A stretch of 64,000 bases of DNA, from positions 682,001 to 746,000 of the forward strand of contig NZ_CP022535.1 in assembly GCF_002237575.1 (NCBI RefSeq), read 5' to 3'. Every line of letters starts with the position of its first letter. Within the stretch, counting starts at the first letter, position 1. The position numbers and the translations under genes were made by a program. The stretch comes from Spiroplasma corruscae. GTDB taxonomy: Bacteria; Bacillota_I; Bacilli_A; Mycoplasmatales; Mycoplasmataceae. Below are positions 2,137 to 26,058 of the stretch, piece by piece. Below the pieces are notes generated by a model. That model saw nothing but the letters and a program-made list of their open reading frames with translations, did no database searches and had not been told where the DNA came from.

Positions 2137-3567
2137 TTATTTGATAAGTTTTAAAACCTTATCATGTACTTTTTTTACTGATTGGAAATAAATTAACTTT
2201 TCTTTTAGATTTTCTAAGTTTGTTTCTTTATTTATAGAGTTTTTATGAGCCATGTGTTTATTATAGAATTTTTTTAATGCAACCAAATCATTACTATCTA
2301 TTTTTATTTTCTTCATATTTTCTCTAACACCTGATTGTGACATTTCACCAACCAGTATGTTAATTTCTTTATGAAGTTTTTCTACATCATTCAAATGATT
2401 TGTAACTTTAGTTATATCTTCTTCACTCATAACTCTTTTATCACTATTAAAAATTTCTATTAAATTGCTAATAGTGTAATCTAATTTATTATTTAAACTA
2501 TAAATTACTAATAACTCTTTTAAATTTGTGTAATTACTTAAGAAAATTTTTAATACATCATCACTTCAATTAAAAGTTTCTTCTTTATTAATTAATAACT
2601 TTAGTCCTAATGTAATAAAATTGTTTGAATTCTTAATTTTTAAATATGAATTAACGGTATTGCATTTAATTAAATAAGAATTAATATTTTCTATTATATT
2701 TAATAATAACTTATTTTTAACTTCGTATATTTTATTGGAATCTATAAGAAAGTTTAGAGCTAATTCAGAAATATTTTGATCTTTACTATATTCAATCACC
2801 GAAGAAGAATATCAGTATGTACCAAAGAACTTACAAATTTTAACTTGTCTAACTCCAACTTCTTCAATAATGTATAGATCACTATCTTTGAAAAATTTAA
2901 GTTCTTTTTCATTAAGATTCATGACGTATTCATTATTTAATTGATCAAATCTGCCTTCTAAAATTTGATTATCGTATTTTAAATCTAATAAATTTATGTT
3001 CCTCTCTTCAATAGATGAAGTAAAATCCTTTAGTGATAATTCATAATATTTATTAGAGTTATTTACAAGTTTTATTTTACATATATTATTCTCATAAATA
3101 TATTCATAATTATCATAGTCATCATCGATCAAAATGTTTTGAACTACTTTTGAACTAACAAAGTCTTCATCAGGGTTTAAGTTATTAATTATATAATTCC
3201 CATCTTTATAAATATCACCTGCAAATACTTTATTACCAATAATAGTTATATCTAATGACGGGTAATAATAATATTCTCAATTACTTACTTGAAATGTTGG
3301 GACTAAGGAATTGTTTAATATATTTTCTATATCTTCACCAGAAAATTCTTTAGACTTTTTAAGATATAGGCTAGAAAATAATTTATATAAACTTCCATTC
3401 CCAGTAATTTCTTTTATGAATTCAATAGCTTGTATTGGATCTTTGATATTTTTTATTATCGATGCAACTAAATATAAGTCAAAAGAGGATTTTTTAAATA
3501 TTTTTGTAACAACTTCAATTTTTCTTAAATACTTAGATAATTTTAAACTTACTATCCCTTTTGTCAT
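2137..3567 (-). CDS. Uncharacterised protein encoded downstream of SF1 helicase
   Basis: 476 residues with TGA as Trp, from ATG at 3565-3567 (GGAG eleven bases upstream) to TAA at 2137. The start lies inside the last 35 bases of the upstream helicase gene, so the two are translationally coupled. I recognise no domain, no signal peptide and no clear membrane segment. The N-terminal 90 residues are basic and helical-looking, the centre is rich in Asp, Asn and Tyr, and the C-terminal 100 residues look coiled (repeated Lys-Glu-Leu). The tight coupling to the helicase suggests a partner subunit, perhaps for target recognition or effector function; that is inference only. Confidence 0.7.
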
Positions 3568-6061
3568 AGTTTATTTCTCCATTTGGTGTTATGCTAATTT
3601 TTATTCCTTTTGACTCGATATATTCGATAATATTATTTAAGTAATTATTTTTACCACTATTAGGAGCAGACATAACTAATTTTTTTAGATTTATGTTTCC
3701 GAACAAGAATAACTTATCTTTCGCTCTTGATAGTGCAACATTAATTCTTCTGAAATCTTTCAGAAAATTAAGTTTATTAATATCCGTAACAACTGTGCTT
3801 ACCAAAACAATATCTGATTCTTTACCTTGAAAAGCATCTATTGTATCAATCTCGTAACTTCTAAATTTTATTTTTAGTTTATTTATTAGTTTGCTATTAT
3901 CTCTTATGAAATTCCTCAACTGATCTTTATAAGGAAATATTGTTGATATCTTTATTTCTTGTGGATTTTTAACATTATTAATTAAATAGTTTAACATTAC
4001 TTTAATTGCTTCGTTTTCATATATATTGAAACGTGATGTAGAGTTTGAACTACTAGATTCAGTTCCATTTAAAGGTTCTATAAAATAAACATCTTTATCA
4101 TTACTAATTATTTCTTGGTCTTCTTTAAATGCAACTAATTTATCATCTTTATCTTTTCTATTACATTTTAATTGATTATCATAGAACACATTATAAGTAG
4201 AAAGAATTTGTTCAGTTGATCTATAGTTCTCATTTAACAATACTAGTCTGTCACTTTCCTCAGCTTTTTTTATAGTTTTAGAAAAGATTGATTCTATATA
4301 TGTTTTTTCAAGTAAGTCGAACTTTTCTTCATCATAAGATTTTAAATCTTTTACATCATCTTTAGAAAACTCTAAGATTGGTGATAGTTGATAATCATCA
4401 CCTACTAATATTATTTTTTCTACATACGGTAAGTATCTTAAAACTTCTGTGATTGGGCATTTAGAAACTTCGTCAATAATTAATCACTTAAAGTTTTCTA
4501 ATACTTGATAACCTTTTCTTCCAGAAATTGCAGTTGTAGTTGTTGTTGCGCCAATCACATAATAATCATCTGGTAACTTTTCAGTAAATGATATTTTCTT
4601 CTCTCCCTTAAATTTTTTATAATCATTTAATATGTTATTTTTGATCTCTTCATTTTGATAATCATTAATGTATTCTTCAAATTTTGAAGCTCATGTATCA
4701 AATAAAGTTTCATCAATATTATTTAAATCATATCTATTATATTTATTTGTAATTCTTCTCGGAATAACTGGGTCTTTATTCTCAACTAATTTATCCAGTA
4801 CATTATCAATAGCAATGTGTGTTTGAGATGAGATAATGACTCTCTCTTTTAATTCTTTTGTAATGTATTGGATTATTGAGTTAATAACATGAGTTTTTCC
4901 GGTACCTGGAGGACCTTTTATCAATGTAATCGGATTTGAATCAATACCTTTTAGGAATGCTTTTGTTTGAGAAATGTTCAATCCTTTAGTATATAGTTCA
5001 ATATTATTTATTTTATTATAGATTGTTTCATTTGGCATTTTTGCATCACCAATTAAATATTCTAATAAATTAATTGCGGTTCCACTATTACCTTCTTCAA
5101 TTAGTTTTAATGAATTTTCAATTGACTCAATTTTTATTTGTTGACCTTTATCATATAATAATAAATATTTGAAATCTATTTCTTTATCATAACTAACACT
5201 TAGAACTAAGCTATCTCTATCTTCTTTTATATATATTAATTCAACTTGAACTAATCCATTAATATTATTTGAATTAACTTCACTATAATTACTCAGGAAT
5301 AAATTTTCTTTTTGTCTAGTTATTTTTTTATATATATTAGTTTTCTTTTTTACTCTTATTTTTTTTAATGTAAGTATATCTTTTTGAATTGATTTATTAA
5401 TGTTCTCCTTAGAAGAAGGAATTGTATAACCGATTAATATTTCATTATTATCATATACTGGTTCGAAATCTTTATAAATTGTTTGTAACTCATTATTATT
5501 ATTAAATAATTCTTTACAAGTTGAACTAATAAAATATTCTTTTTTAGATACGTTTTCAATCACAAAATTATCATTATTATTTATTTCATTATATAGTTCT
5601 TTATAGTATTTAAATATATCCATAAAATCAGAGAATTGAGATATATTGAAAACAAAATCCTTACTATTGATTAAACTCTCAAATAAAGTTCTTAATTCTT
5701 CAATACTACTTGGCTCTAAATCATTAAAACTAATTGATTTAGTAAAACCTTTTGTTTGTTCATACGATTTATTTTTGAACACTTTATACTTATAAATAAA
5801 CATATTAGCACCTAATGGTGTTCTATAATCACAACTTAATGAAGCATATAAAACTAATAATCCAACTGATAATTTTATTATTACTTCTACATCTTTTATT
5901 TCTTTAATTAAATCTGGATATTTTAAATCTTTTTCAATAATTATTTTTTTTGTAGTTATTTTAGAATTAATAAAAGAATTTTGTTTTAATTCAGTTTTGA
6001 TAATTTTAAATTCCTCAACATTATCAAGGAACTTTGCATTTGTTAATTTGAATTTAATCAT
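3533..6061 (-). CDS. Superfamily 1 DNA/RNA helicase (AAA_11/AAA_12, Upf1/Dna2-like)
   Basis: 842 residues. The helicase motifs are in order: motif I KGPPGTGKT near residue 382-390, motif Ia with QTHIAIDNV, motif II LIIDEVSK near 527, motif III with VGDDYQLSP, motif IV NENYRS near 612, motif V DAFQGKESD near 745 and motif VI RRINVALSRAKDKL near 770. This is the layout of SF1 ATP-dependent helicases of the AAA_11/AAA_12 pair. The N-terminal 370 residues are not recognisable and may be a nucleic-acid-binding or substrate domain. The ATG at 6059-6061 overlaps the preceding small gene by 19 bases and has GAGG upstream; the 3' end overlaps the next gene by 35 bases. The three genes therefore form one coupled unit, likely in phage defence or DNA processing. 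Confidence 0.9.
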
Positions 6062-6483
6062 TGTTGAACCTCTTTTTTACAATATAATTCTGATATTTTA
6101 TTTTTATTATACCTATATAATCTTTCACTTTTATCTGTTCTTCTTTTATACAATTTTTTATTTGTTTTTAGTTTGTTAATTCTAGTGTAATTTTTTTCAT
6201 CTAACATTCTATCAGTAAATAAATTTAGTCTAGATCTAGTTTTTCTTTCTTTAAAATAAATGTCATTCTTCAATGCTGCTTTATATAACTCATATTCTGC
6301 TTTTAAAATTAATCTTGGTTTTTCCAAACATCAATCTTTATGGTCTTTCTTAATACCTCTAATTTCTTTAGCTTTGTGACTAGCTTCTTTAAAACTATAT
6401 GCAATTATAGGTAAATAAATAGCAAGATATTTATTTCTCCCAACATGACCAAATTTACATAATATTAAATAGTATTTTTTGAT
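6043..6483 (-). CDS. Small basic protein heading the SF1-helicase operon, likely ATC start
   Basis: 146 residues ending in TAA at 6043, with very many Lys and Arg. The N-terminal part contains KFGHVGRNKY, then LPI, then a helix rich in KEASHKAKEIRGIKKDHKD. I recall a small uncharacterised family with a Cys-x3-GHVG-x-x-K-Y motif next to helicases in other Firmicutes and Mollicutes, but I cannot confirm it here. No ATG, GTG or TTG lies in frame before codon 53 (a TTG at 6325-6327). An excellent Shine-Dalgarno sequence, AGGAAGG at 6491-6497, sits 7 bases upstream of an ATC at 6481-6483, and an in-frame TAG lies at 6496-6498. I therefore place the start at ATC. The 3' end overlaps the helicase gene by 19 bases. 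Confidence 0.65.
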
Positions 6484-6488
6484 AGTAT

Positions 6489-6497
6489 CACCTTCCT
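6489..6497 (-). promoter_or_regulatory. Ribosome binding site deciding an ATC start
   Basis: AGGAAGGTG on the minus strand ends at the correct distance from ATC at 6481-6483. It is the only good Shine-Dalgarno sequence in the 5' part of the small gene and overlaps the in-frame stop codon, so initiation must lie downstream of it. Confidence 0.55.
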
Positions 6498-6543
6498 AAA
6501 TTTGTAATCAAAAAAAATAACGTCTTATTTTGTTTTTTTTGTT

Positions 6544-6745
6544 AGGTGTACAACCTACTCAGATTTAAAAACCTTTTTGGGTGTATGGACTTTATTAAAA
6601 AGTTCCTTCGTTTTGCATAATTATAATAACATATAGAAAATAAAAAGCAAACATAAATATTTACTTTTTTTAATTTCTTTTAAATGGGTGTACACCTAGT
6701 TGTGCAAAACGAAGGAAATACACCCTTGGTTTTTACGTTTTGCAA
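6544..6745. promoter_or_regulatory. Operator-like region with inverted repeats upstream of the helicase operon
   Basis: The 15-base word TGCAAAACGAAGGAA is present twice in opposite orientation (minus at 6603-6617, plus at 6703-6717), with a partial third copy near 6735-6744. GGTGTA or TACACC half-sites recur near 6545, 6580, 6687 and 6719, and 6687-6696 is the perfect palindrome GGTGTACACC. A minus-strand promoter with TATAAT at about 6620-6627 lies just upstream of the first repeat. The arrangement looks like a repressor-controlled promoter for the 6483-2137 genes; the binding protein is unknown. Confidence 0.5.
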
Positions 6746-6797
6746 GTTAATTATAACTTAAAGTACACTTAATGTCTATAAAAAAATAAAATTTAAA

Positions 6798-7752
6798 CGT
6801 TAATCTAACAATATCAATATTAATTTATTTTTGTATTTTTTGATTCTAGCATTTCTAAATTTATAAGTAAAATCGATATCATAATTATTTAAAATGTTCT
6901 CTTTAACTTTTGATTATAGTTCACTTATTTTTAAAAAGTTGTTATCAAATACTATATATAATCAATAATTTGAATCAAATATCACTTCGTCTTGATTTTA
7001 ATATAATCATCTTATTAATATCATAGGTTCATTTTTAATAATATCTTTATAGTTACCTAATTTTGACAATTAATCTTTTAATTTTTGACCCACTGACTTA
7101 GATACATTTTAATCATACATAACACCATTAATATAAAGTTATCAGATTTATTATGAACTAATGTAGGGATAATATCTTCATAAAATTAAAAAATTACACA
7201 ATCAATTTAATCATTCCTAAAAGTATTTATTTTTTTTTATTTTTCTAAACTTCTTAACAGAGATAGTTAAAATTTCATCTTTTTCTTCTTCTGCTAGTTC
7301 ATCTTTTCTATTTAAAACATTAACATAATAATCAAAACCATTTGCATTGAAAGGTCAATTTATATCATAACCATAATATTTGTGGTAATCATCCATTGCA
7401 ATATTCATTTTACAAAAAGAGTCTTTACCATATTTATATTCGTTTCTTAACTCGGTGAATAGTTTTTATAAATATCACAAAGTATTATGATATCCTTTAA
7501 AATAATTAAAATTCGGTATTTTCTTTATAACCATCAAACAATATGCTTGTACATAACTATAATATTGAATATCATTAACAATAAAATTATAATTATATTT
7601 CTTAAATTGTTCTGAAACATCACTTGTTCCAGAAAAAATATAACAAAATAATTTTACTTCCTTTGTTATATTATTTGCTTATCAATCACTTCTTCAATAT
7701 AATTTAATAATCTCTTTTTTAACCAAGATACTACAAAACACTAACTTCATAA
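6798..7752 (-). pseudogene. Decayed D12-class DNA adenine methyltransferase
   Basis: The minus strand starts MKLVFCSILVKKEI at 7752 and then breaks repeatedly by frameshifts and TAA codons. A stretch near 7480-7660 reads FSGTSDVSEQFKK, NYNFIVND and IQYYSYVQAY, which closely matches the SAM-binding motif I region of D12-class N6-adenine methylases (F-x-GTG-x-V-x3-FK, then ND-x-x-YYSYV). A second open block at 7240-7450 contains MDDYHKYYGYDINW and VNVLNRKDELAEEE. A third near 6810-7010 reads NYDIDFTYKFRNARIKKYK. At least three frameshifts and several stops mean no functional enzyme. It lies directly downstream of the PD-(D/E)XK nuclease gene, so it was probably the modification gene of this block. 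Confidence 0.6.
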
Positions 7753-7820
7753 TTACTATTTTAAATATTAATATATAAAAATAATTATATATAATATAAC
7801 TCTATATAATATATATTTTT

Positions 7821-8768
7821 TTAGTTATCAAAAATCTCTTCTAATGTTAAATTTTTAAATGAAAATAAATTAACTTCATAAGTAACTTCTTTAATCAAAT
7901 CAGAATGATTTTCAATATATGGAATTTCTTTTGTGTCTATAAACTTAAGAATAACATTCTTATGATCGAACCTAACAAGAGTTCTATTATCATGTGATTT
8001 CTTTATTTCCTCAAAGGTATCTTTAATCTCGCTTGCTAATTGAGGAATTTTTAAAAATCAATCAATTAAATCGATTACAGTTTGTCCGCTTTTTTTTACT
8101 AATTTAATACTTACAGCTGCATAATAATCATTTATATTTTTATTAACTTGGTCATTTTTCATCTTAAACATTCCATCTTGGCTTGTTGTAGTCTTAACTT
8201 CAATATTAATATTTTTATTATTATGATCAATTTGAAAATCTGTTTTTGAAGTAAACTTTTTACTTTTAATATTTTCAATGTGATAAGAACTTGAAAGTTC
8301 GTTTAAATATTTTTGGTTTTTTTGTATAACCAATAACTCTCCAATTAAACCTATTTGAAACTTTTTATCTATTTTTCAAACAACTCCAAATATATTTTCT
8401 AATTCACAAACAATATCATAAATACTATTTTCAGTTGCTTGTTGTAAAAATATTTCATAAATCATTCTAGCTATTTTTTCTGGGCAATTTTTCACTAAAA
8501 AAATTATTTCTGCATCTGTTTTAGTATCGTCAATCTCAAGTAATAATCTATCAGATGGGAAACCAATTGCTCTTTCATCTTCTTTAGCTGCTACACCTAT
8601 TCCACTAATTGATGGGTAATATGAGAAGTTGGGTTTATTAAGAGTCTTAACACCCTTTGGTAAGTTACTAAAATCTTTGATTTGTTTTAATATAAAATAT
8701 TGATTTGAACTTTGTATTTTGCCTCAAGCAAATCCATTTGAGTTTTCTAAAATATTAATGTTTTCCAT
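7821..8768 (-). CDS. DUF4420-like PD-(D/E)XK motif protein (restriction nuclease subunit)
   Basis: 315 residues from the ATG at 8766-8768, two bases after the Z1 gene stop; an in-frame ATG at 8781-8783 is an alternative and neither has a good ribosome binding site, consistent with coupling. The fold signature is at about residues 176-192: TDFQID, then IEVKTTT, giving the D...E-x-K metal site of the PD-(D/E)XK nucleases. The upstream part with GERA-like and FPSDRLLLEI segments also fits DUF4420, a family found beside Z1 and MORC/MutL-type ATPases. Length fits the family. It probably acts as the DNA-cutting component of the DndC/GHKL/Z1 cluster. Confidence 0.8.
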
Positions 8769-8770
8769 AC

Positions 8771-10195
8771 TTAACTTGTTCATTTCAAAGACATTGTTTT
8801 AAACAATTCTTCTATTTTCTCCTTTTTTCCAGAATTATGTTCATATAATTTACTATACATATCTCTTATATTACTTTCTAAATAATAAATCTCTTCATAA
8901 AATTTTTTAGCTACTTTAGTTACAAATATTTTCATTTCTTTAATGAATTGTTCTCTGTACCCAAACCACCTTGCTCTTTGTAACAATGTGTCTGATGTCA
9001 GATTATTTGGTGAAGCGTGATTTATCATAATTTGATACAATAAATTATCAAATGTAATACCTCTTGATAATAAATTACCACCAATAATTATTTCTGGTGT
9101 ATCTTCTCTAATATAATTAATTCCTTCAATCGTATACTTAACTTTTAATGCATTTAAATATAATTTAAATTCTTTTAATTCATCTCCACCAACATGATTT
9201 AAAAAAAAGTCATCTTTTTCAATTTTTATTAAATTTACAATAAATCTAAAATAAGTGGCTAGGTTTTTTATCTTATTTTTACTACTATCAACATTTATTA
9301 AAAACTGAAAATTTCTTGAATACTTAAAACATATACATAGAAAATCTGTAATAGTATTTTTCATAAAATTATTCAATTTTTCGTTGTTATAACTAATATT
9401 TTTTAAACCTTCTACTAAGTTTTCCTCAAGCTCAATATAACTATTATTATCAATAAATTCTTTTAATCCACAATAACTTTTAGAAGAACTTAATGGCACT
9501 AAATAATCTGGAGTTAATGAATCTGTATATGATAATAAATTTGCGTAAGGTGTAGCTGTAACAGAAAAATATAATTTATTTTTTGTTTTATAACTTAGTA
9601 ATTTGTCAATATTTGTATTAACTGTTCTATCTACTTTGCTTTTCTCGGAAGAAGCTTCGTCTGCTTCGTCATCTATTATAATAATCTTTCAATCTTCATA
9701 ATCAACTTCTGATAAATCTTGAAAATTTTTAAGTAGATTGGAAATGTTTTGTTTAATCCCATACAAGAATTGACAATTTTCTGATTTAAGAAAAAAATTA
9801 TTTAGTTCTTTAAAATCTTTGAAACTACAATCCTTATTAGATTCCTTGAATCTACTTACGTTTTGTATATTTAAATTATTTTTTGTACCAGTAAATAATA
9901 TAAATTTATTAAATCCTTTATCTCTTAACATAGATGTTAAAAATATCATATTATTTGTTTTACCTGATTGAACTTCACCAAATAATAAAACTTTTTGTAT
10001 ACTTTTATTAAGATCTATGCATTTGATAACTTTATCCATATTAACTTCAATAACATCACTTAATAAGTTAATGCCATACGAAGGATTATCTTTTATAAAT
10101 TTATCCTTTGTTAAATTAAAAGTTTTCTCTGGAATGAATTTTGTTTCTCTTTTTATTGATTTATCAATAATTAATCTTGCTTTACTAGTCGACAT
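8771..10195 (-). CDS. Z1-domain SF2-like helicase/ATPase
   Basis: 474 residues, ATG at 10193-10195 with GGAG upstream, overlapping the GHKL gene end by 11 bases. Motifs: Walker A GEVQSGKT (73-80), DEAD-like box IIIIDDEADEAS near 171-182, motif III SVTATPYAN near 212, and the Z1 hallmark GGNLLSRGITF (372-382) followed by LLQRARWFGYR (404-414), equivalent to SF2 motifs V and VI. The Z1 superfamily is known from MORC/MutL-linked restriction systems and from the MzaABCDE anti-phage system. It likely couples ATP hydrolysis to DNA translocation for the adjacent nuclease. Confidence 0.9.
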
Positions 10196-11966
10196 TATGT
10201 AAAATCTCCACTATTTGAAATATTTTATTTAATCTTTCTTTATCGCTCTTGCATGTTGAAAGAGAACATAATATTAAATTTATGATTGGGTTAATCAACA
10301 CCAATAAAGATTCATCTTTGATACCTTTCTTGAATCCATAAAAGTCTTTGTTAACATGAAGTATTAGTAACTGAACCCCATCTAAAATAGAACTTTCAAC
10401 CTTAAAAATTCTTAAATTATCATTATCAAATTCAGTGTTATTAATATTATAAGTTAGGTTGTATAAAGTATTAGCAGTCTCTAATTCTCTAACAGAAAAC
10501 GAACTAATAGTTCTCTCGTCATCATTATCCGGGTCAATCATAGTTAATTCTTTTGGAATAACATCAAATTTTTCTAGTGTTTTATTTTTATTAACAATTT
10601 CTGAAAATCTTTCAATTTCTTGTTTTATTTCTTTATCACTTTTAACTTGTTCATCCTTATGAAAAATTAATTCAAGCATTTCTCTAAATATAGGTTCAAG
10701 GTTGCTTTTGAATACTGATATAATATTTTTTTCGATATCTTCTTTAACAGTGCCGTGAAAACCCATTTTATTATTATCAACTCTAAATATCTTTTTATCA
10801 TCCAGTTCAATTTCACCGATAAATCTATTATTTATATAATAACTTTTATTTGATAACGCTTTGTCAAATGATAATCATGTTAGAGTATTAAGTTTTGAAT
10901 TAGGACCAGCGATAATTGCTCTTCCATCTTGATAAACAGATAACCCATTATATTTTAATAATGCATCATTCTTACCAATAAATCCAAATATAAACGGAAT
11001 CTTGTAATTTTTATACTCATTTTCAGCTAATGCAATTTTACACTCAAATTTAAATTCTTCTTGCTTTTCAAATTTCTCAAATATATCACCGTATGTAAGA
11101 CCTACAAAACCAACATTATCTTGTAATTTATTTTCATAAGCTTTTTTTAATATGTTATATCTTTCTTTATATTCTCTTGTTGTATTTATATTTTTTCCAG
11201 GAGCATATTCATAATCATTTTTCCCAAAGCTTGATATAAATGAGTTAGGGATCATCGCTTTTGTAATGTCTATACTTTTACCATTAGACATCTCTTCATT
11301 ACCTTTTTTATTAATAAAACTCAAATTAATAGACAACATTCCTTTTCTCAAGAATCTAGCATATCTACATGCTATTTGTTCTTCTAAGGCTTTTCCTGTA
11401 TTTTTTTCACCTTTTCTAAACATTTTTGCATCATATCTACCCGCATGAACTGATTTTAAGTGTAATTTATCAATTTTTATAATAGTACCATTTTTATAAT
11501 CAAACTTATAACCTGATTCCTTTGATATATCAATATTTTTTACATCTGTAAAATAAAAATCCTCATCTTTTAATTCATCAACATCTAGAGTTAATGAGTA
11601 GGCAAAATTATCATTTATATGCTTAGTGTATATTCTTAATCTTTTTCCAAATCAAATGGAAGCCATTTTCATCCCAACACCAAACATGTTTAAAGAATCA
11701 CCTTGTTCATACTCAGACTTACCATTTTTAATTGCAATGTCTCTTTTATCATATGGTATTCCACAAGCATCATCAGCAATTATCATGTATTCATCCTTTA
11801 AATTTACTATAACGTTAACGTTAACATGCTGTTGATTATAATCAAGAGCGGATTGAATTGAATTATCGATAAATTCTGAAATCATATATATATGACTTGT
11901 TGTTTTATCAATATATCCTAGAAACTCTCTATTAGTTCTAGGTATTTTATTTTTGTTTTCATGCAT
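10185..11966 (-). CDS. MORC/MutL-like GHKL ATPase of restriction-type cluster
   Basis: 593 residues. The Bergerat ATP-binding fold is clear: N-box EFIDNSIQSA (31-40), G1 box DDACGI (65-70) and G2 box with FGVGMKMA (95-102). I chose the ATG at 11964-11966 because GGAG lies 10 bases upstream; a GTG at 11973 is too close to it. Prokaryotic MORC-type GHKL proteins are established partners of Z1 helicases and DUF4420 nucleases. The 5' end overlaps the DndC-like gene by 20 bases and the 3' end overlaps Z1 by 11, so the block is strongly coupled. The C-terminal 250 residues have no recognised domain but contain acidic stretches. Confidence 0.85.
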
Positions 11967-13407
11967 TTCTTTCACTCTCCATTGTTAAGTTTACTTTATT
12001 ATATATTTTTTCTATTGAATTTTTATCCTTTTTAAGTGCATTTTTTACAATATCAAATAATTCATTTATTAAACCTATTTCTTCATCTGAAATAACTTCT
12101 ACTCCAAAGTTTTTCATATTATCATTCAATTCTTGAATTTTACTTAATAATTTAGTTCTATATGAAAGCGTGTACGGTCCTAAACCGACAGTTGTTAATT
12201 TATTGTTATTTTTATTCTTATTTAACTTTATTACTATGTTTTCTGGTAATGTAATATCATTTTCGTTATATGGATTTATAACATTATTATTAACAAGTTC
12301 TTTATACTTATCCTCAGTTAATACTTTAATAAATTTACCTTCTCATGATAATTGGTCATTTTTATTATCATATTCACCATATATTATTTTATTTCTGCCT
12401 TCTTTTTTTGGCAAAAAATATACTCCATCTTTTTCTTTTAAATCCATAAATCTATATTTTATCAAAGAAGCCACTTTTGTTTTTTTATTAATTCTGAATG
12501 ATGCAAAATATCTATTCTCTAAAAGATCTCTTTCTTTTATTAAATCATTTCTAAAATCCATTAATGGTTGCAACCAATCGTTACCAGAATTAATAAATCC
12601 TTGTAAAGATTTATCTTGAGTAACTACAGGGCAAAGTCAGCAACCTCATCTAGAATTTCCACATCCTTTTTGAAGTTTATCATCTAATGAAGAAGGACAC
12701 TCTTCAACTCCAACTGATGAATCTTCATATAATATAGATAGTTTGTTATTGTTTTTTTTAAAGTATTTTAGGTTTGATTCTCCTAAATATTTTCATATAT
12801 CAAACAAACTAAAGTTTTCAATCGGTGCAAATACATAACTATTATTTGTATTATTTTTTCTTAATAGTGAGTTTTCAATTTTAGTGTTTATTAATTTTAA
12901 ATCTCTACTGTTTGATTCTCCAGTTCTAACTCCTAAAACGGTTAAAACATCCTTATTATTCTGATCTAATTTATTTATATACTCATTCATTGGTTTGATT
13001 TTTAATCTATCGGTACATCATCTAAAACTTTGATTTGGTAGTGGATATCCCCTTCCAATTAAATTAACTCAAAACGACTCATTATAATCAGGTAAAACCT
13101 TATGAACAATAACAGGTAAGTTATTAAGTTTACAGAATGATTTTATAATGTCTAATGATTCATTCAACTGCTTTAATACAATTGGATTTTCAATAAGTGT
13201 ATCAGAACTTACAATATGAAGATCTTTATTATAAAATTTTTTATCTATTTCCAATAATGATTCAAGTATTATTTGAACTAACACACTTGAATCTTTCCCT
13301 CCTGAAAAACCTATCATTCAAGTATAATTACTATTCTTATAGATATTTTTTATATTATTTTTTGTTTCTTTTATTTTTTTAACGTGCAAATCTAGTCTAT
13401 TTTCCAT
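11947..13407 (-). CDS. DndC-like PAPS-reductase-family sulfurtransferase
   Basis: 486 residues from ATG at 13405-13407 (AAGGA five bases upstream) to TAA at 11947. The PP-loop FSGGKDS (34-40) that binds ATP is intact, followed by a PAPS-reductase fold. Cysteines for the iron-sulfur cluster are at SFRWCTDRLK (about 125-134) and GCGNSRWGCWLCPVV (about 246-260), the latter very like DndC of DNA phosphorothioation. DndC with DndA, DndD and DndE puts sulfur on the DNA backbone; none of those partners is visible here. Next come GHKL, Z1 and DUF4420 genes with overlaps, so it is the first gene of that operon. Function in phosphorothioation or a related modification is inferred. Confidence 0.85.
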
Positions 13408-15022: not shown

Positions 15023-18000
15023 TTATAATTCCTCCTCATACAATTTAATTTCTGATTTAATGTTAGTAATAAATCTTTTTCTTACAACTTGACTTTTATC
15101 TCATCAATCAGTTGATAATATTCTTATAAACTTTCAACCTCTGTTTTCTAAGTACTTTTGTCTATCATAGTCGTTTTGTTTACTAAATACACTACTATGG
15201 AAAGTTAAACCATCACATTCAACTGCTAAAACATATTGTTTTTTTAAATAATCATATATTGCTAAATCAATTTTATATCCAGATGCTGGAACTTGAGTAT
15301 GAAGTACATAATGATCTTTATCTAATAACTTATTTATTTCATCAAATACTTCAACTTCAAAATCACTATCAAATTGTTGGTTATAATCATCTTTATCTAT
15401 ATTAAATAACTTTGTTTCATTATTTAACATTATTTCTAATTCTTTTTCATATTTTGTTGGTTCTTTTAATAACTCACAATATTTTAAAAAATCCTTAAAA
15501 TCAAGTACCCCTTTTTTATCGGAGTTAATGATTGAAGAATTAATTGATTTAATAACATACATCTTTTCTTTTGCTCTTGAAATTGCAACATTTAACCTTT
15601 TTTCACCATTAACTTGTGCTAAAGGACCAAAATAATTTTTAAATACATTTGTTTTATCATATGAAAATCCAACTGAGAATATTATTATATCCCTTTCATC
15701 TCCTTGGACATTTTCAATACTCTTAACAAATAACTCTTCACCACTTTCTTTTTGATATAGATTAATATATAAGTCTGCATTAACTGCACTTTCTTTTTCT
15801 AATAAATCTAATATAAATGATTGTTGTTCAGAGTTAAATGTAATAATACCGATTGATTTATCTTTAATTTTATCATTGCTTAATATAAATCTAACTAATT
15901 CTAATACAGTATTAGCTTCTTCAATATTAATTCTGTTTTCTCTTATTCCATTTACTTCAATTAACTCTATTGGTCACTTTACATATTTTACTTGTTTACT
16001 AACAATTAATTTATTTTCATAGTATTTTGCATTAGAAAAATCAATTAATTCTTTATTTTTGCTTCTATAGTGATATTGAAGCATTGAAGTCTTAAATCTA
16101 CCTTTAGCAAAATCTAATAAACTCTCAAACTTCATTGCTTCTTTAACTTCATAATTAACTTGGTTAATAATATCTTCTTCTATCTCTAAAGATTCTTCTA
16201 ATATATCACTTTTCATCTTAAAGAAACTTGTTGGAGCGAGTTGCTTATCATCTCCTGATATTACATATTTTTTAGCACGATATAAAATAGGAATACATTT
16301 CTCTGTAAATATTTGACTAGCTTCATCAAATATAGCATAGTCAAAATTACTTCTTTTTAAAGGAAGGATTTTACTATCAGAAATAATTTCAGGAGAACCA
16401 ATTATAACAGGAAAGAATAGTCTTAATAATGGTAAATAATTTTTAAATAGTGTTGATATTCTCATATGAGTTTTTGTATTAGCGATTTTTCTTCCTAAAT
16501 CATTAAATAAAGTTTTATAACTTTTTTCCAGATTATTTACATCATCTTTATAATTACCTAACTTTACTTTTTTTACTATATATGAGAAATAATTATATAT
16601 AATAATTTTCTTATTATTATTAATTTTATCTTTTGACAAATTACTTATTTTGTTGAACCAATCATCAGACATGAATAAAAATAAATCTGCAAATTCATTT
16701 TTAAAACTACTACAATATGAAGCAATTAAAACATTATTAGTCAGATTACTTATTATATTGTTTGAATTAAATATACCTTTAATAAACTTTAACATTGTAA
16801 TTACTTCGTTATTTGAATAAGTTGAAGTGAATTTATTAATAAATGATATAAGTTCTAAATATTGCTCTGATTTAATGAATAATTTATATTTTCTTCTATT
16901 AAATATATTAATTTTTGTTTTATTTTTATGTTTTTTAATAAAGTTATATAATAACTGTGATAACAAATTATTTTTATATATCTCATTTATTAATTCTTCA
17001 TTATATAATTGCACTTCTAATAACTTGTGTAAAAAGTTTAATTCTTCAACTAAGTAATTTTTTTTAATCAATAAATCACTAACATTTATAAATAAGTTTA
17101 AATTATTGTATCTTATTATTTCAACATCTATTTTATTAATGTTACTTAGGTACTTTAAATAAGATAAATACAACTTACCCATTTCACCTTTAAATAATTC
17201 TTTATATTTTTTTACATTATCATAATATTTATCTAATATAATTGATTCTTTATCATTTAAATTACTATTAGTATTGGTATTGTTTAAATAATCAATTACA
17301 TTATTATACATCTTCTTTATTTTTTCAAAAATTATACTTGCTGAGTCGTTGTTATGAAACATTAAAGTAAAGTTATTTAGATTGTGTAATTTATCATAAA
17401 CTACTTTTGATGCTACTTTCTTTTCAGTGACAAATAAAGCTGTTTTATTTTGATTTATTATGTTTGCTAATAGATTTACAATTACTTGTGATTTACCAGT
17501 ACCTGGTGGACCAAATATAAATGTAGAATTTGATAATGATTTAATTACTGCATTTTTTTGAGTAAAATCAAGTGATGATACATTAACAAAATCTGATTCA
17601 TTATAGTCATTATCAAAATCTTCTAATATATCGTTTGTTTCCTTAAATATATCATCTAAAAAGCTAATGTCTTCATTTTCTAAAATGTTATAAGCTGAAA
17701 GTATAGTACTTGATGCTATATCATATATACCAAACGAGCATATATTTAGACAAAAAGCTTGATTAAAGTACTTATTATTATTTTCTTGGAATAATCTTCC
17801 TGCTTCATCTCTTTTATATCCTTTAGTATTTTCAAACTCTAAATTAGAAGTATTTATGAAATTTTGTGGATCAGTTAATCTATATCCAATAATGTCAAAA
17901 TAAGAAACTAATTTTTCTATTATCTGTTCTTTATCATTTAACATTAAATCTCCTAGATCTTTGAACTCTCATTGTTTTTTATTTTTTAATGCTAAAATAT

Positions 18001-18496
18001 TAAATAAAGAATTATTTAATAATAGTTCATCTTCTATTACTACATTATATACAGAACCACCCAAATCATTAATTGCTATTTTTTTTAGTACTAAAGGCGC
18101 TCTAAAATAGTCGCTTTCATTAGTTGATGCGCAACCTTCTACAAAATATAAACCCATATATAAGACATTAATATTTTTTTCATTTGATTGGGTTTTGCTC
18201 TTTTGAATTATTTTTTTAATGTGTTTAGCATAACTCAATGTACCTTTTGAAGTTAAATTATCTTCACTAAGCTCTACATCATAAAAACTTATATAAAATG
18301 AACTATTATTTAGAGCTTCTTTTAGTGTAATTGGAGTTTTATCATTCCTATTTGATCTTAATAAACCTAATTTTTCTAACTGTTTGAAGTCAATTGTTAA
18401 TGCAGATGGTAAAAAACTGTTATAAAATATACCACTGTTTTTATTACTATTTAATAATCTACTTTTAAAATTCTTTAATAATTCATTACTATTCAT
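15023..18496 (-). CDS. DUF4011/SF1 helicase with C-terminal Vsr/MTES_1575-like nuclease domain
   Basis: 1157 residues, ATG at 18494-18496 with AAGGA upstream. The N-terminal region fits DUF4011 (APLVLKKIAI, LYMGLYFVEG). The helicase core has Walker A FGPPGTGKSQVIVN near residue 325, Walker B YAIFDEASQ near 715 and motif III SGDDKQLAPTSFF near 745. The tail, after residue about 1060, reads YKIDLAIYDYLKKQYVLAVE then CDGLTFH and ends with RGWKFIRILSTDWW, which is the REase-type fold often fused to these helicases. Such proteins are common in Firmicutes and Mollicutes and are thought to act in DNA repair or defence. It is a single intact frame only with TGA as Trp. Confidence 0.9.
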
Positions 18497-22841: not shown

Positions 22842-25070
22842 TTACACTTCTATGATTTCAATAATTTCTTGATTGATTTCTTCTTCAATAATATTATCAA
22901 TATTTAGTAATTCAAAATTAATTAATGAGGCATGCATTTTTTCTTTTAACACAATTGCACAACCATAATTAATCTCTTGGTCATTTCTACTAAACAAATC
23001 ACTACAAGAAACTCTTAAATAAAATTTATCAGTTTTTCTTGCGTAACCTTTAGGATTAATAAAATCTTTATTAATCAGAACCTTATTGGGGTCATACTTT
23101 TTAAAATGTTTAATTAAATCAACTTCAGTAGCATTTTTACCACTTGTTTTGGAAGTTCCTTTTGATTTAAAAATATCATCTCACCCTCCTTTTATGTTCA
23201 TATTTGTTATTTTAAATTCTAGATTAATTGATGAGTATTCATCGCCTAATTTATATGAAGGAACTACAAAATAAGATAATCCTATCCCATAAGTAAAGTC
23301 TTGTTTTAATTTTTCATTCTCAAAAGTTGGTAATATAATCTCAATAAATTTATCTTCTTTTGGTTTAATTACACCCTCAACAATCAATAATATACTTTCA
23401 GTATTATTATCAAATAAAATATTTGGAATTTTATATTCTGAAATTTCAGACAATAAATTAATAATTGCTTTAACTGATTCTAAACTAAGCTTATATTCAT
23501 TCATCAAATAACAACATTTTCTAGCCGTTAATGGGGCAGAAAAAGATGTGCCATCTTCCCATGTTAAATAACCTTCGCTATCAATTGTATATTGAAAGTT
23601 ATTAGAACTTTCTTCATTATATATATCATTTGAGATTTCATAAGTATTGGGTTTTATAAATCTACCAAAAATTTCTTTTGAACCAGAATAACTAGTTTTT
23701 CTTAAAATACCATTTTTATCTTCAAATAGAGAACCGACAGTTATAGCAGACAATGAATCCGCTCCTGCTGATAATTCCTTTTCATTATTTCCTGCAGAAA
23801 CAATAAATAGAACATTATATTTTTTTTGTAATATGTCAAAATATTGACCTAACAATGAAATACCATTTGAATCGTTTTCAGAATTTATTGATAAATTTCA
23901 AATTTTAATATCTCTTGAATTATTTTTGATAATATTATCAATTTTTTTCATAAAATAAAACATATTAATAGGATCAAGGGGTAATATACCAAATAATTTT
24001 ACTTTAAATACTCCTAAATCATCCTTATATTTAGGATTAATAATGTCATGCCCTATAATTAAAGTAGAAACGGAAGTGCCATGACTGTAATTTTTTTGAA
24101 AATTAAATCCCTTAATGTTTGGAAATGGTTCTTCCACATAATCAACATAGCTTTCTCAACCATTACTAAATGAACCATATGAATCAATAACTCCAATTAC
24201 ACCATTTGTCTTTAATCCTTTATCAATCGAGATGCGTTTATTTATATTATTATAATTATTTGATACTTCTATTTTTAAATCTCTAGAAGCATTTGAAATT
24301 AAAAATGGATACAATTCAACTATTTTGTTTAAAGTGATTTTATCTAAGTTAATAAATTTCTCAAGTACAATTATAGATTCTTCAATTTCGACTTCTTTAA
24401 TTTTTAATTTTTTTAATATATTTTCAAATGAATCTATATCAAAAAAAGTAATTATTTGGCCTTCTGTAAATGCTCTTTGATTTGTTATTTCTAACTTTAA
24501 AATCTTATAAAACTCGTTATAGTAATTAGCAAATTTTTTTAAATTATTTTGTTTGACATATTCATTAATTTTATCATTAATTTTATTTTTATAATTTTTT
24601 TCCTCAGGCATTTTATCCTTTTTATTTTTAGAGCTTATAATAATGTATTGATTTTTATAATAAATTATTTTGTTTATTAATCGTTGTGGTCACAAATCAA
24701 TCAATTCATTTAAATTATTTAGTGTATTTTCAATATCTTCTCTCGAACATGAATATACAATATCAATTTGATCTATTATTTTTTTGTTTTCAAAAATATA
24801 ATATGACCCAATTTGTTTGGGAGATTTATCATTATTCTTAAATATAAGCTCAATCCTATCTGTCTTAGGTAATAATCTACCAAATCTTATTTTTATCGGC
24901 ATTAAGTTAAAATCACTTTCAAAGTAAGTGAATTGATTTAACACATTTTTTATCATAACTTGTAATTCAATTAGTTTATTTAAGCTTAAGTCTCATTTTA
25001 AATAATCAATACCTCCTCCAGCTGGTTTTTTTGATGGTTGATAAGGACTTTTATATCTTATTAGTTTCAT
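22842..25070 (-). CDS. Subtilisin-like (S8) serine protease paired with AAA+ ATPase
   Basis: 742 residues; ATG at 25068-25070 with AAGGAGG upstream. The catalytic triad is visible: Asp in GVIDSYG (about 296), His in YSHGTSVS (about 329) and Ser in DGTSFSAP (about 509), plus the oxyanion Asn in SAGNNE (about 428). There is no signal peptide or lipobox, so it should act in the cytoplasm. The 150 residues before the catalytic domain and the C-terminal 180 residues are not recognised. It overlaps the end of the AAA+ gene by 20 bases. AAA+/subtilisin gene pairs are widespread in bacteria and suspected to act in conflict or protein quality control; the ATPase may unfold or present targets. Confidence 0.88.
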
Positions 25071-26058
25071 CTTTTATCCTCCTTATTGTCGAATAACTTT
25101 TATTTAAAATAATGGACTTATCTTTATCCGAAAATAATTTTGAATTAATTATATCTTCTTCTGCAAAATTTAATATCTTGTATACACTATGTTCAAGATT
25201 ATATCCGTTAAATAGTGAATCTGTTAATATCTCATCTATTTGAGCGTAGTTTAACTCATCTTTTTTATATGTAATTAATTTATTTATTAAATTTATTTTA
25301 TGATCTATTTTTTTTTCAAGTGCTTTTTTTATTAGACTATCTTTAAATACTACAATATCGATTGTACTAAAATAAAATTTAACATTAAATCTTCTTAATG
25401 TAGCAGAATCAATCATATCGATTCTGTTTGTGATTGCAAATAAAATCGTTTCTGGTAGTAACTTATCTAGCATTAAATTAAAACTTCCTATCATTCTGTG
25501 ATATTCTTTGTTCATATTTTCATCCCTTGAACCTATAACTGAATCAAATTCATCGATGATAAAAATACTATTTTTATATCTAATTATTATATCTTTAAAA
25601 AGTAAATCCATATTTTTTTGTGTTTGACCAATTAATGAAGATATTAATGACGAAGCACTTATACTATAAAGATTTCTATTGGTTAATTTTGCAATGTCTT
25701 TAACAAATGTAGTTTTACCTGTACCAGGTTTTCCATAAAATATAGCTTTTATTAATCCTAAATTTCTTAGTTTTGTTTTATCTCTGATTATATTAACAAA
25801 CTTTTGAAGGTAATCATTATTTTCGTTTAATATTTGATCATTTAAAACACACTCTTCAAGGATTAATAGTTCTTGATCCATATTATTTGATGAGCTAGTA
25901 ATCATTTTGTTTGAACCTAAAATATTTAAAACATACTCAGCATCATTATACCTTCCATCTGCTCTAAGTGATTTGGCGTAGTTTTTTAATTTTTTTATTG
26001 ATTCATCTGATTTAATAGTTGCCAGTAAATCTATAATATCTTTAACTGATTTATCCAT
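25051..26058 (-). CDS. AAA+ ATPase partner of subtilisin-like protease
   Basis: 335 residues with a classical AAA module: Walker A YGKPGTGKTT (108-117), Walker B FIIDEFDS (166-173), sensor and arginine-finger region NRIDMIDSATLRRFN near 210-225. It most resembles FtsH/proteasomal-type ATPases without protease domain or membrane segment. The first 100 residues are helical and may bind the partner. The stop overlaps the protease start, so both are made together. The promoter region contains five 21-bp repeats (26103-26207). Confidence 0.9.
   Translation of the reverse strand: MDKSVKDIIDLLATIKSDESIKKLKNYAKSLRADGRYNDAEYVLNILGSNKMITSSSNNMDQELLILEECVLNDQILNENNDYLQKFVNIIRDKTKLRNLGLIKAIFYGKPGTGKTTFVKDIAKLTNRNLYSISASSLISSLIGQTQKNMDLLFKDIIIRYKNSIFIIDEFDSVIGSRDENMNKEYHRMIGSFNLMLDKLLPETILFAITNRIDMIDSATLRRFNVKFYFSTIDIVVFKDSLIKKALEKKIDHKINLINKLITYKKDELNYAQIDEILTDSLFNGYNLEHSVYKILNFAEEDIINSKLFSDKDKSIILNKSYSTIRRIKDETNKI

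Follow-up and report, generated by a model that had tools for sequence, protein, structure and literature searches.

A putative MORC-Z1 restriction-modification variant with a DndC-family sulfurtransferase in Spiroplasma corruscae

The genome of Spiroplasma corruscae (1.2 Mb, AT-rich, with TGA read as tryptophan) carries, within a 64-kb stretch of contig NZ_CP022535.1 (positions 682,001 to 746,000; G+C content of 0.21; "the window" hereafter), four adjacent genes that encode a DndC-family sulfurtransferase, a MORC-type GHKL ATPase, a Z1 helicase and a DUF4420 nuclease. We propose, with a probability of roughly 60%, that this four-gene cassette is a defense system similar to MORC-Z1 restriction-modification, in which the sulfurtransferase acts as the modification subunit and the self mark is probably phosphorothioate DNA. 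As far as sequence can establish them, four features carry this proposal: the genes are intact and look co-transcribed, their catalytic motifs are conserved, they are exclusively linked in eight genomes, and dndC is exchanged for other modification genes in sister loci.

Results

Gene layout and conserved motifs

The four genes (Table 1) have to be read in genetic code 4 (TGA = Trp), as the dndC frame contains eight in-frame TGA codons next to one TGG. Under this code all of them are intact, on the same strand, and without gaps between them. Starts at 13407, 11966, 10195 and 8768 are plausible alternatives to the longer frames; with them the first two junctions overlap by 20 and 11 nucleotides (nt) and the third leaves 2 nt between the genes, in line with the overlapping or touching genes claimed in the original prediction; homologues of the DUF4420 protein align from its internal methionine. 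A pentapeptide-repeat gene ends 70 bases upstream of dndC. A promoter and terminator scan gave a signal equal to background.

Table 1. Genes of the DndC-MORC-Z1-DUF4420 operon (window coordinates)
Product	Protein	Coordinates	Strand	Length (aa)	Remarks
DndC-family PP-loop / [4Fe-4S] sulfurtransferase	P0001	11947..13413	-	488	ATG 13413 or 13407; operon gene 1
MORC-type GHKL ATPase	P0002	10185..11975	-	596	GTG 11975 or ATG 11966
Z1-domain superfamily II helicase/ATPase	P0003	8771..10195	-	474	short form
DUF4420 PD-(D/E)XK nuclease	P0004	7821..8783	-	320	ATG 8783 or 8768

P0001 is identified as DndC both by PADLOC (7e−108) and by the NCBIfam equivalog TIGR03183 (323.8 bits against a cut-off of 290.4). 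Among its PADLOC scores DndC is the best by more than 300 bits (360 bits versus 46 for SspD and 49 for BrxP). The PP-loop SGGKDS and cysteines 133, 239, 251, 258 and 261 are invariant in seven aligned cassette DndCs as well as in 24 canonical DndCs of other lineages, so the PP-loop and cysteine cluster that had been described as intact, and with them the active residues, hold up in alignment. An AlphaFold2 (AF2) model of the protein, built with these 24 canonical sequences, has a predicted local distance difference test score (pLDDT) of 75, and is good in the PP-loop domain and weak in parts of the C-terminal third. In a fold search, the model matched reductases of 3′-phosphoadenosine-5′-phosphosulfate (PAPS) and the [4Fe-4S] thiolases NcsA, TtuA and LarE. 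A sequence search of P0001 against PDB gave no match, and the profile A5 gave only weak, unrelated or generic matches there. DndC is the sole PAPS_reduct protein in the genome and therefore does not belong to a sulfate-assimilation pathway.

The three partner proteins also retain the motifs of their families. P0002 matches HATPase_c_3 (2.8e−12) and keeps all nucleotide-binding motifs (EFIDNS, DxxxGI and GxGxK, with a conserved Lys403). Its segment GLSVYQDGRAI (residues 344 to 354; G344, Q349 and R352 invariant in seven sequences) agrees with GhXhhpXXRhl, the S5 motif that defines MORC proteins (Iyer et al., PMC2292703). No match to P0002 was found among plasmids or phages. P0003 matches Z1 (2.3e−17) and ResIII (1.5e−6), has the helicase motifs GEVQSGKT, DDE.D, TATPY and DTLLQRARWFGYR, and carries, as DTLLQRARWFG at residues 402 to 412, the Z1 signature DThhQXuRhFG of Iyer et al. 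(PMC2292703). The match of P0004 to Pfam DUF4420 is marginal (4e−6, just under the family cut-off); its residues E149, D182 and E195-x-K197 are invariant (six homologues) and correspond to the E-D-ExK pattern of the nucleases in MORC-Z1-nuclease operons (PMC2292703).

Linkage of DndC and Z1

Profiles of DndC and Z1 were run on 248 genomes of the order Mycoplasmatales, to which S. corruscae belongs. DndC is present in 8 of these genomes and Z1 in 55, and in all eight DndC genomes a Z1 gene lies 0.9 to 1.8 kb from dndC. A GHKL gene stands beside the pair in every one of the eight loci, and an intact DUF4420 gene in seven. Adjacency aside, the probability that random placement would put all eight DndC genomes inside the set of 55 with Z1 is about 4e−6, a figure made optimistic by the kinship of the genomes. 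The carriers span two families, the first represented by a main genus and one further genus. The co-occurrence of the four families is not chance: the postulated hybrid, in which DndC joins a MORC-Z1-DUF4420 core, does exist, recurs in this order and has mutually linked parts.

The cassette occurs in two gene orders. The order dndC-ghkl-z1-duf4420 is found in the window and in loci L010, L011 and L012, and also in L013 with a split duf4420. The order ghkl-z1-duf4420-dndC, followed by genes for an unassigned protein and a DUF262 protein, is found in L014, L015 and L135. The unassigned protein (293 to 387 amino acids; L014:9232-10395, L015:9490-10380 and L135:9641-10522) matched nothing in Pfam, with two copies scanned, and nothing in PADLOC, with a single copy scanned. 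In L013, which comes from the smallest carrier genome (0.65 Mb), a TAA codon lies inside the DUF262 gene and the DUF4420 gene is apparently split over two frames (L013:1688-4131); this cassette may be decaying or frameshifted.

For lineages outside the order, we collected the 80 best relatives of DndC from 84,980 genomes, plus a further 80 from viral contigs; 144 of these loci score as DndC. Among the matches listed, a Z1 of this kind stands beside DndC in none of these 144 loci of other lineages, within flanks of up to 8 to 10 kb. The outside loci examined are, by gene order and length, DndB-C-D-E-A operons, and DndE was confirmed in three of their genomes. When 392 genomes of the phylum were sampled, six outside the order had DndC, none of them with Z1 beside it, and the five distant Z1 loci in viral contigs have no DndC. 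Within this sample, the DndC-MORC-Z1 hybrid appears to be restricted to the order, and rare cases elsewhere are possible.

Partners in sister loci and exchange of DndC

We annotated 67 Z1 loci of the order with labels from profiles built on the sequences in hand, and the resulting counts are therefore lower bounds. The partner beside GHKL and Z1 is DndC in 8 loci. In 13 others it is a C5 methylase, in 4 an adenine methylase and, unexpectedly, in 13 more a PP-loop enzyme of a second type (PP2). Two loci have a DUF262 protein without an assigned methylase (L141 and L142, where DUF262 is directly adjacent to the GHKL-Z1 pair and no methylase lies beside it). Many of the other Z1 loci are at contig ends or in a long-Z1 branch. 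A published core set carries a cytosine methyltransferase (PMC9523054). Judged by gene content, DndC occupies the slot that methylases hold in sister loci, and to this extent the idea of sulfur chemistry as the self mark is partly supported.

PP2 (380 to 485 amino acids, Pfam PAPS_reduct) is the first or last gene of GHKL-Z1-DUF4420-like sets in loci L149, L152 (2873-4051, plus strand), L167, L169, L171, L172, L173, L174, L183, L185, L186, L204 and L205; in two of the 13 (L149 and L172) it is read from the other strand and diverges from ghkl. PP2 is distinct from DndC and has weak scores as BrxP, CysD or CysH. Five cysteines are invariant in the 13 sequences, and we take their pattern, CC...C...GCxxC, to resemble that of Fe-S reductases of adenosine 5′-phosphosulfate (APS). 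The Z1-PP2 locus L204 has two adjacent HATPase_c_3 proteins (L204:4033-7430).

In a tree of the Z1 proteins, the partner labels are clustered, yet they change 14 times. A constraint that placed the Z1s of DndC loci in one clade was rejected (approximately unbiased test, p-AU of 0.012; seven loci, with L013 omitted for its long branch). The eight cassette DndCs fall on one side of a 99% branch, apart from 43 DndCs of other lineages, in trees that contain long branches and only the nearest of the outside DndCs. Because the DndCs group together but the Z1s of their loci do not form a single clade, the marking gene was probably exchanged as a module; in the simplest reading, one DndC lineage seems to have passed, like a cartridge, between at least two MORC-Z1 lineages.

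Missing Dnd components, sulfur supply and methylases

DndD (TIGR03185) had no match in seven of the eight carrier genomes and, in the eighth, a single 34-residue match of 16.8 bits, below the cut-off. DndE (PF08870) is absent from all eight, and the same search gave matches in three Dnd genomes as a positive control. In the genome of S. corruscae itself neither reached its cut-off anywhere, which agrees with the predicted lack of both. AIPR and a methylase, likewise predicted to be missing, are found neither among the four operon genes nor among the scanned neighbors. The sole aminotransferase-V protein of the genome is a SufS-type desulfurase. Given that a housekeeping desulfurase can serve DndC, with IscS as the precedent (PMC10853773), the role of DndA is plausibly supplied by this single housekeeping enzyme.

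A C5 methylase is encoded, together with DUF262 genes, at about 801 to 806 kb in the S. corruscae genome, some 110 kb from the operon. Methylases that adjoin cassettes were considered as cassette parts and rejected, because the sets concerned (DpnII and D12 in L014; two D12 and HNH in L012, with a homologous set in L011) look self-complete.

Genomic neighborhood

Several other genes of the window resemble defense genes. An ATPase of at least 699 amino acids, cut by the window edge, matches the PADLOC candidate PDC-S46 (1.4e−77; positions 1-2100), and a UPF1-like SF1 helicase matches MkoA (6e−77; 3533-6061). From this helicase up to the end of duf4420 (about 6330-7820) there are no long open frames, apparently reflecting decayed genes. 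On the other side of the operon lie a DUF4011-type helicase with a C-terminal MTES_1575 nuclease, similar to ProA/Hhe (15023-18496), and an IetAS-like defense pair (22842-26058), in which an AAA ATPase (335 amino acids; IetA, 3.9e−30) precedes a subtilase (742 amino acids; IetS, 1.2e−27). A protein whose N terminus is similar to the DUF4011-type helicase is also encoded near the cassette of L010 (L010:3-1724).

Discussion

The operon shares with the MORC-Z1-NRE restriction-modification operons, the third type of Iyer, Abhiman and Aravind 2008 (PMC2292703), a MORC GHKL protein with the S5 motif, a Z1 protein with DThhQXuRhFG and an adjacent E-D-ExK nuclease, but it has DndC in place of the DNA methylase, a frequent though not universal component, and no AIPR. 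From the described system of Z1, PD-(D/E)XK and cytosine methyltransferase (PMC9523054), it differs by its short Z1 (474 versus about 925 amino acids). MzaABCDE also combines a GHKL protein (MzaB), Z1 (MzaC) and a PD-(D/E)XK gene; however, the matches in the window are far below the family cut-offs (26.1 bits against 850 for MzaB and 52.6 against 1500 for MzaC), AIPR (MzaE) is missing among the scanned neighbors, as is a sigma factor from the set, and DndC is added.

In comparison with DndABCDE (PMC10853773), the DndC is genuine by profile and conserved cysteines, and the desulfurase may be housekeeping in both. However, both parts of that system's stated core, the DndD/CxC ABC ATPase and DndE, are missing from the genome, which has MORC, Z1 and DUF4420 instead. 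Because these two defining parts were tested and are absent, we do not class the operon as a Dnd system. SspABCD and type 4 BREX, in which a PAPS reductase works with SspB/SspC or BrxC, likewise combine a PP-loop sulfurtransferase with an unrelated DNA-handling ATPase, and DndD-DndE are therefore replaceable; here, in contrast, the PP-loop enzyme belongs to the DndC family and its partners are MORC and Z1. Neither SspB/SspC nor BrxC/PglZ/BrxL was seen among the scanned window neighbors, with no genome-wide search made.

The text of PMC2292703 describes MORC-Z1-nuclease operons with methylases and does not mention PP-loop, DndC or PAPS. PMC10853773 centers its account of Dnd systems on DndD-DndE; the terms GHKL, MORC, DUF4420 and MutL do not occur in its text, and the first three are likewise missing from that of the BREX survey PMC12839542. 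No system that joins DndC or phosphorothioate to MORC, MutL or GHKL was found in the open-access main text searched. The comparisons suggest that the operon is a variant of MORC-Z1 restriction-modification, not a Dnd system, and we found no published description of it in this literature.

DndC proteins are known to take sulfur from a desulfurase and put it into DNA. Given its position in the operon slot, we regard DndC as the modification subunit and propose the following mechanism. The housekeeping SufS-type desulfurase would load sulfur onto DndC, which would activate DNA and insert the sulfur by means of its PP-loop ATP pyrophosphatase site and 4Fe-4S cysteines. The product would most likely be a phosphorothioate in the backbone, and the MORC/Z1 machinery would select the sites in place of DndD-DndE. 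The MORC clamp ATPase and the Z1 helicase would scan DNA and, where the mark is lacking, license the DUF4420 nuclease to cut; restriction, and with it a role in defense, is what we infer from this arrangement. The DUF262 (GmrSD/SspE-like) protein of some relatives is possibly an added effector.

Several observations weigh against this proposal. The aiming of DndC is said to need the ABC-ATPase-DndE core or SspB-SspC (PMC10853773), and that MORC and Z1 might aim it instead is our suggestion. DndC could thiolate something besides the DNA backbone. An AF2 model of the GHKL protein from its single sequence was unusable (pLDDT of 31). Six of the eight carrier genomes encode a C5 methylase elsewhere, and complete separate methylase restriction-modification systems adjoin three cassettes (L011, L012 and L014); methylation in trans is therefore possible.

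The best of the competing explanations, though an unlikely one, is a modification-dependent or abortive version, in which DndC tags DNA with sulfur and the MORC-Z1-DUF4420 proteins or the attached DUF262 protein, instead of being held back by the mark, act on or respond to DNA that bears sulfur or has been handled by DndC, such as that of an invader. SspE is a phosphorothioate-sensing effector family, and the one cassette DUF262 protein scanned has SspE among its PADLOC matches; a DUF262 gene is nearby or attached in four cassettes (L013, L014, L015 and L135), and the sister loci L141 and L142 have DUF262 with no adjacent methylase. However, the cassette in the window has no attached DUF262 gene, and the slot in sister loci is held by ordinary methylases, which protect. 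We give slightly less credence still to the possibility that the cassette DndCs thiolate a base, a nucleotide or a signaling molecule within defense. They do form a clade of their own, the DndC model is similar not only to PAPS reductases but also to tRNA thiolases, and PP2, the second enzyme type in the slot, is similar to BrxP, CysD and APS reductases rather than to DndC; nevertheless, the cassette proteins keep the PP-loop and all cysteines that are invariant in the 24 canonical DndCs, and P0001 passes the TIGR03183 equivalog cut-off. That dndC is an unrelated gene beside an ordinary MORC-Z1 locus in what is indeed a defense island (helicases and an IetAS-like pair), or what is left of a lost Dnd operon, is essentially refuted by the 8/8 linkage over two families and two gene orders, the overlapping frames, the invariant active sites, and the lack of any remaining DndD or DndE in the carrier genomes tested.

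Returning to a sulfurtransferase as the modification subunit, we put at about even the broader conjecture that these loci are a further class of sulfur-based restriction-modification, in which MORC and Z1 aim either DndC or, in the 13 PP2 loci, a different Fe-S enzyme similar to APS/PAPS reductases, and the mark, methyl or sulfur, is exchangeable. If our proposal is true, the sulfur marking of DNA would be aimed by a machine other than DndD-DndE or SspB-SspC, the mark in MORC-Z1 systems would be swappable, and prokaryotic MORC proteins would gain, beside restriction, a testable part in modification. The finding suggests seeking phosphorothioate or other thio-nucleotides in Mollicutes, of which we found no report in the literature searched, and a set of four genes in small-genome bacteria makes the proposal directly testable.

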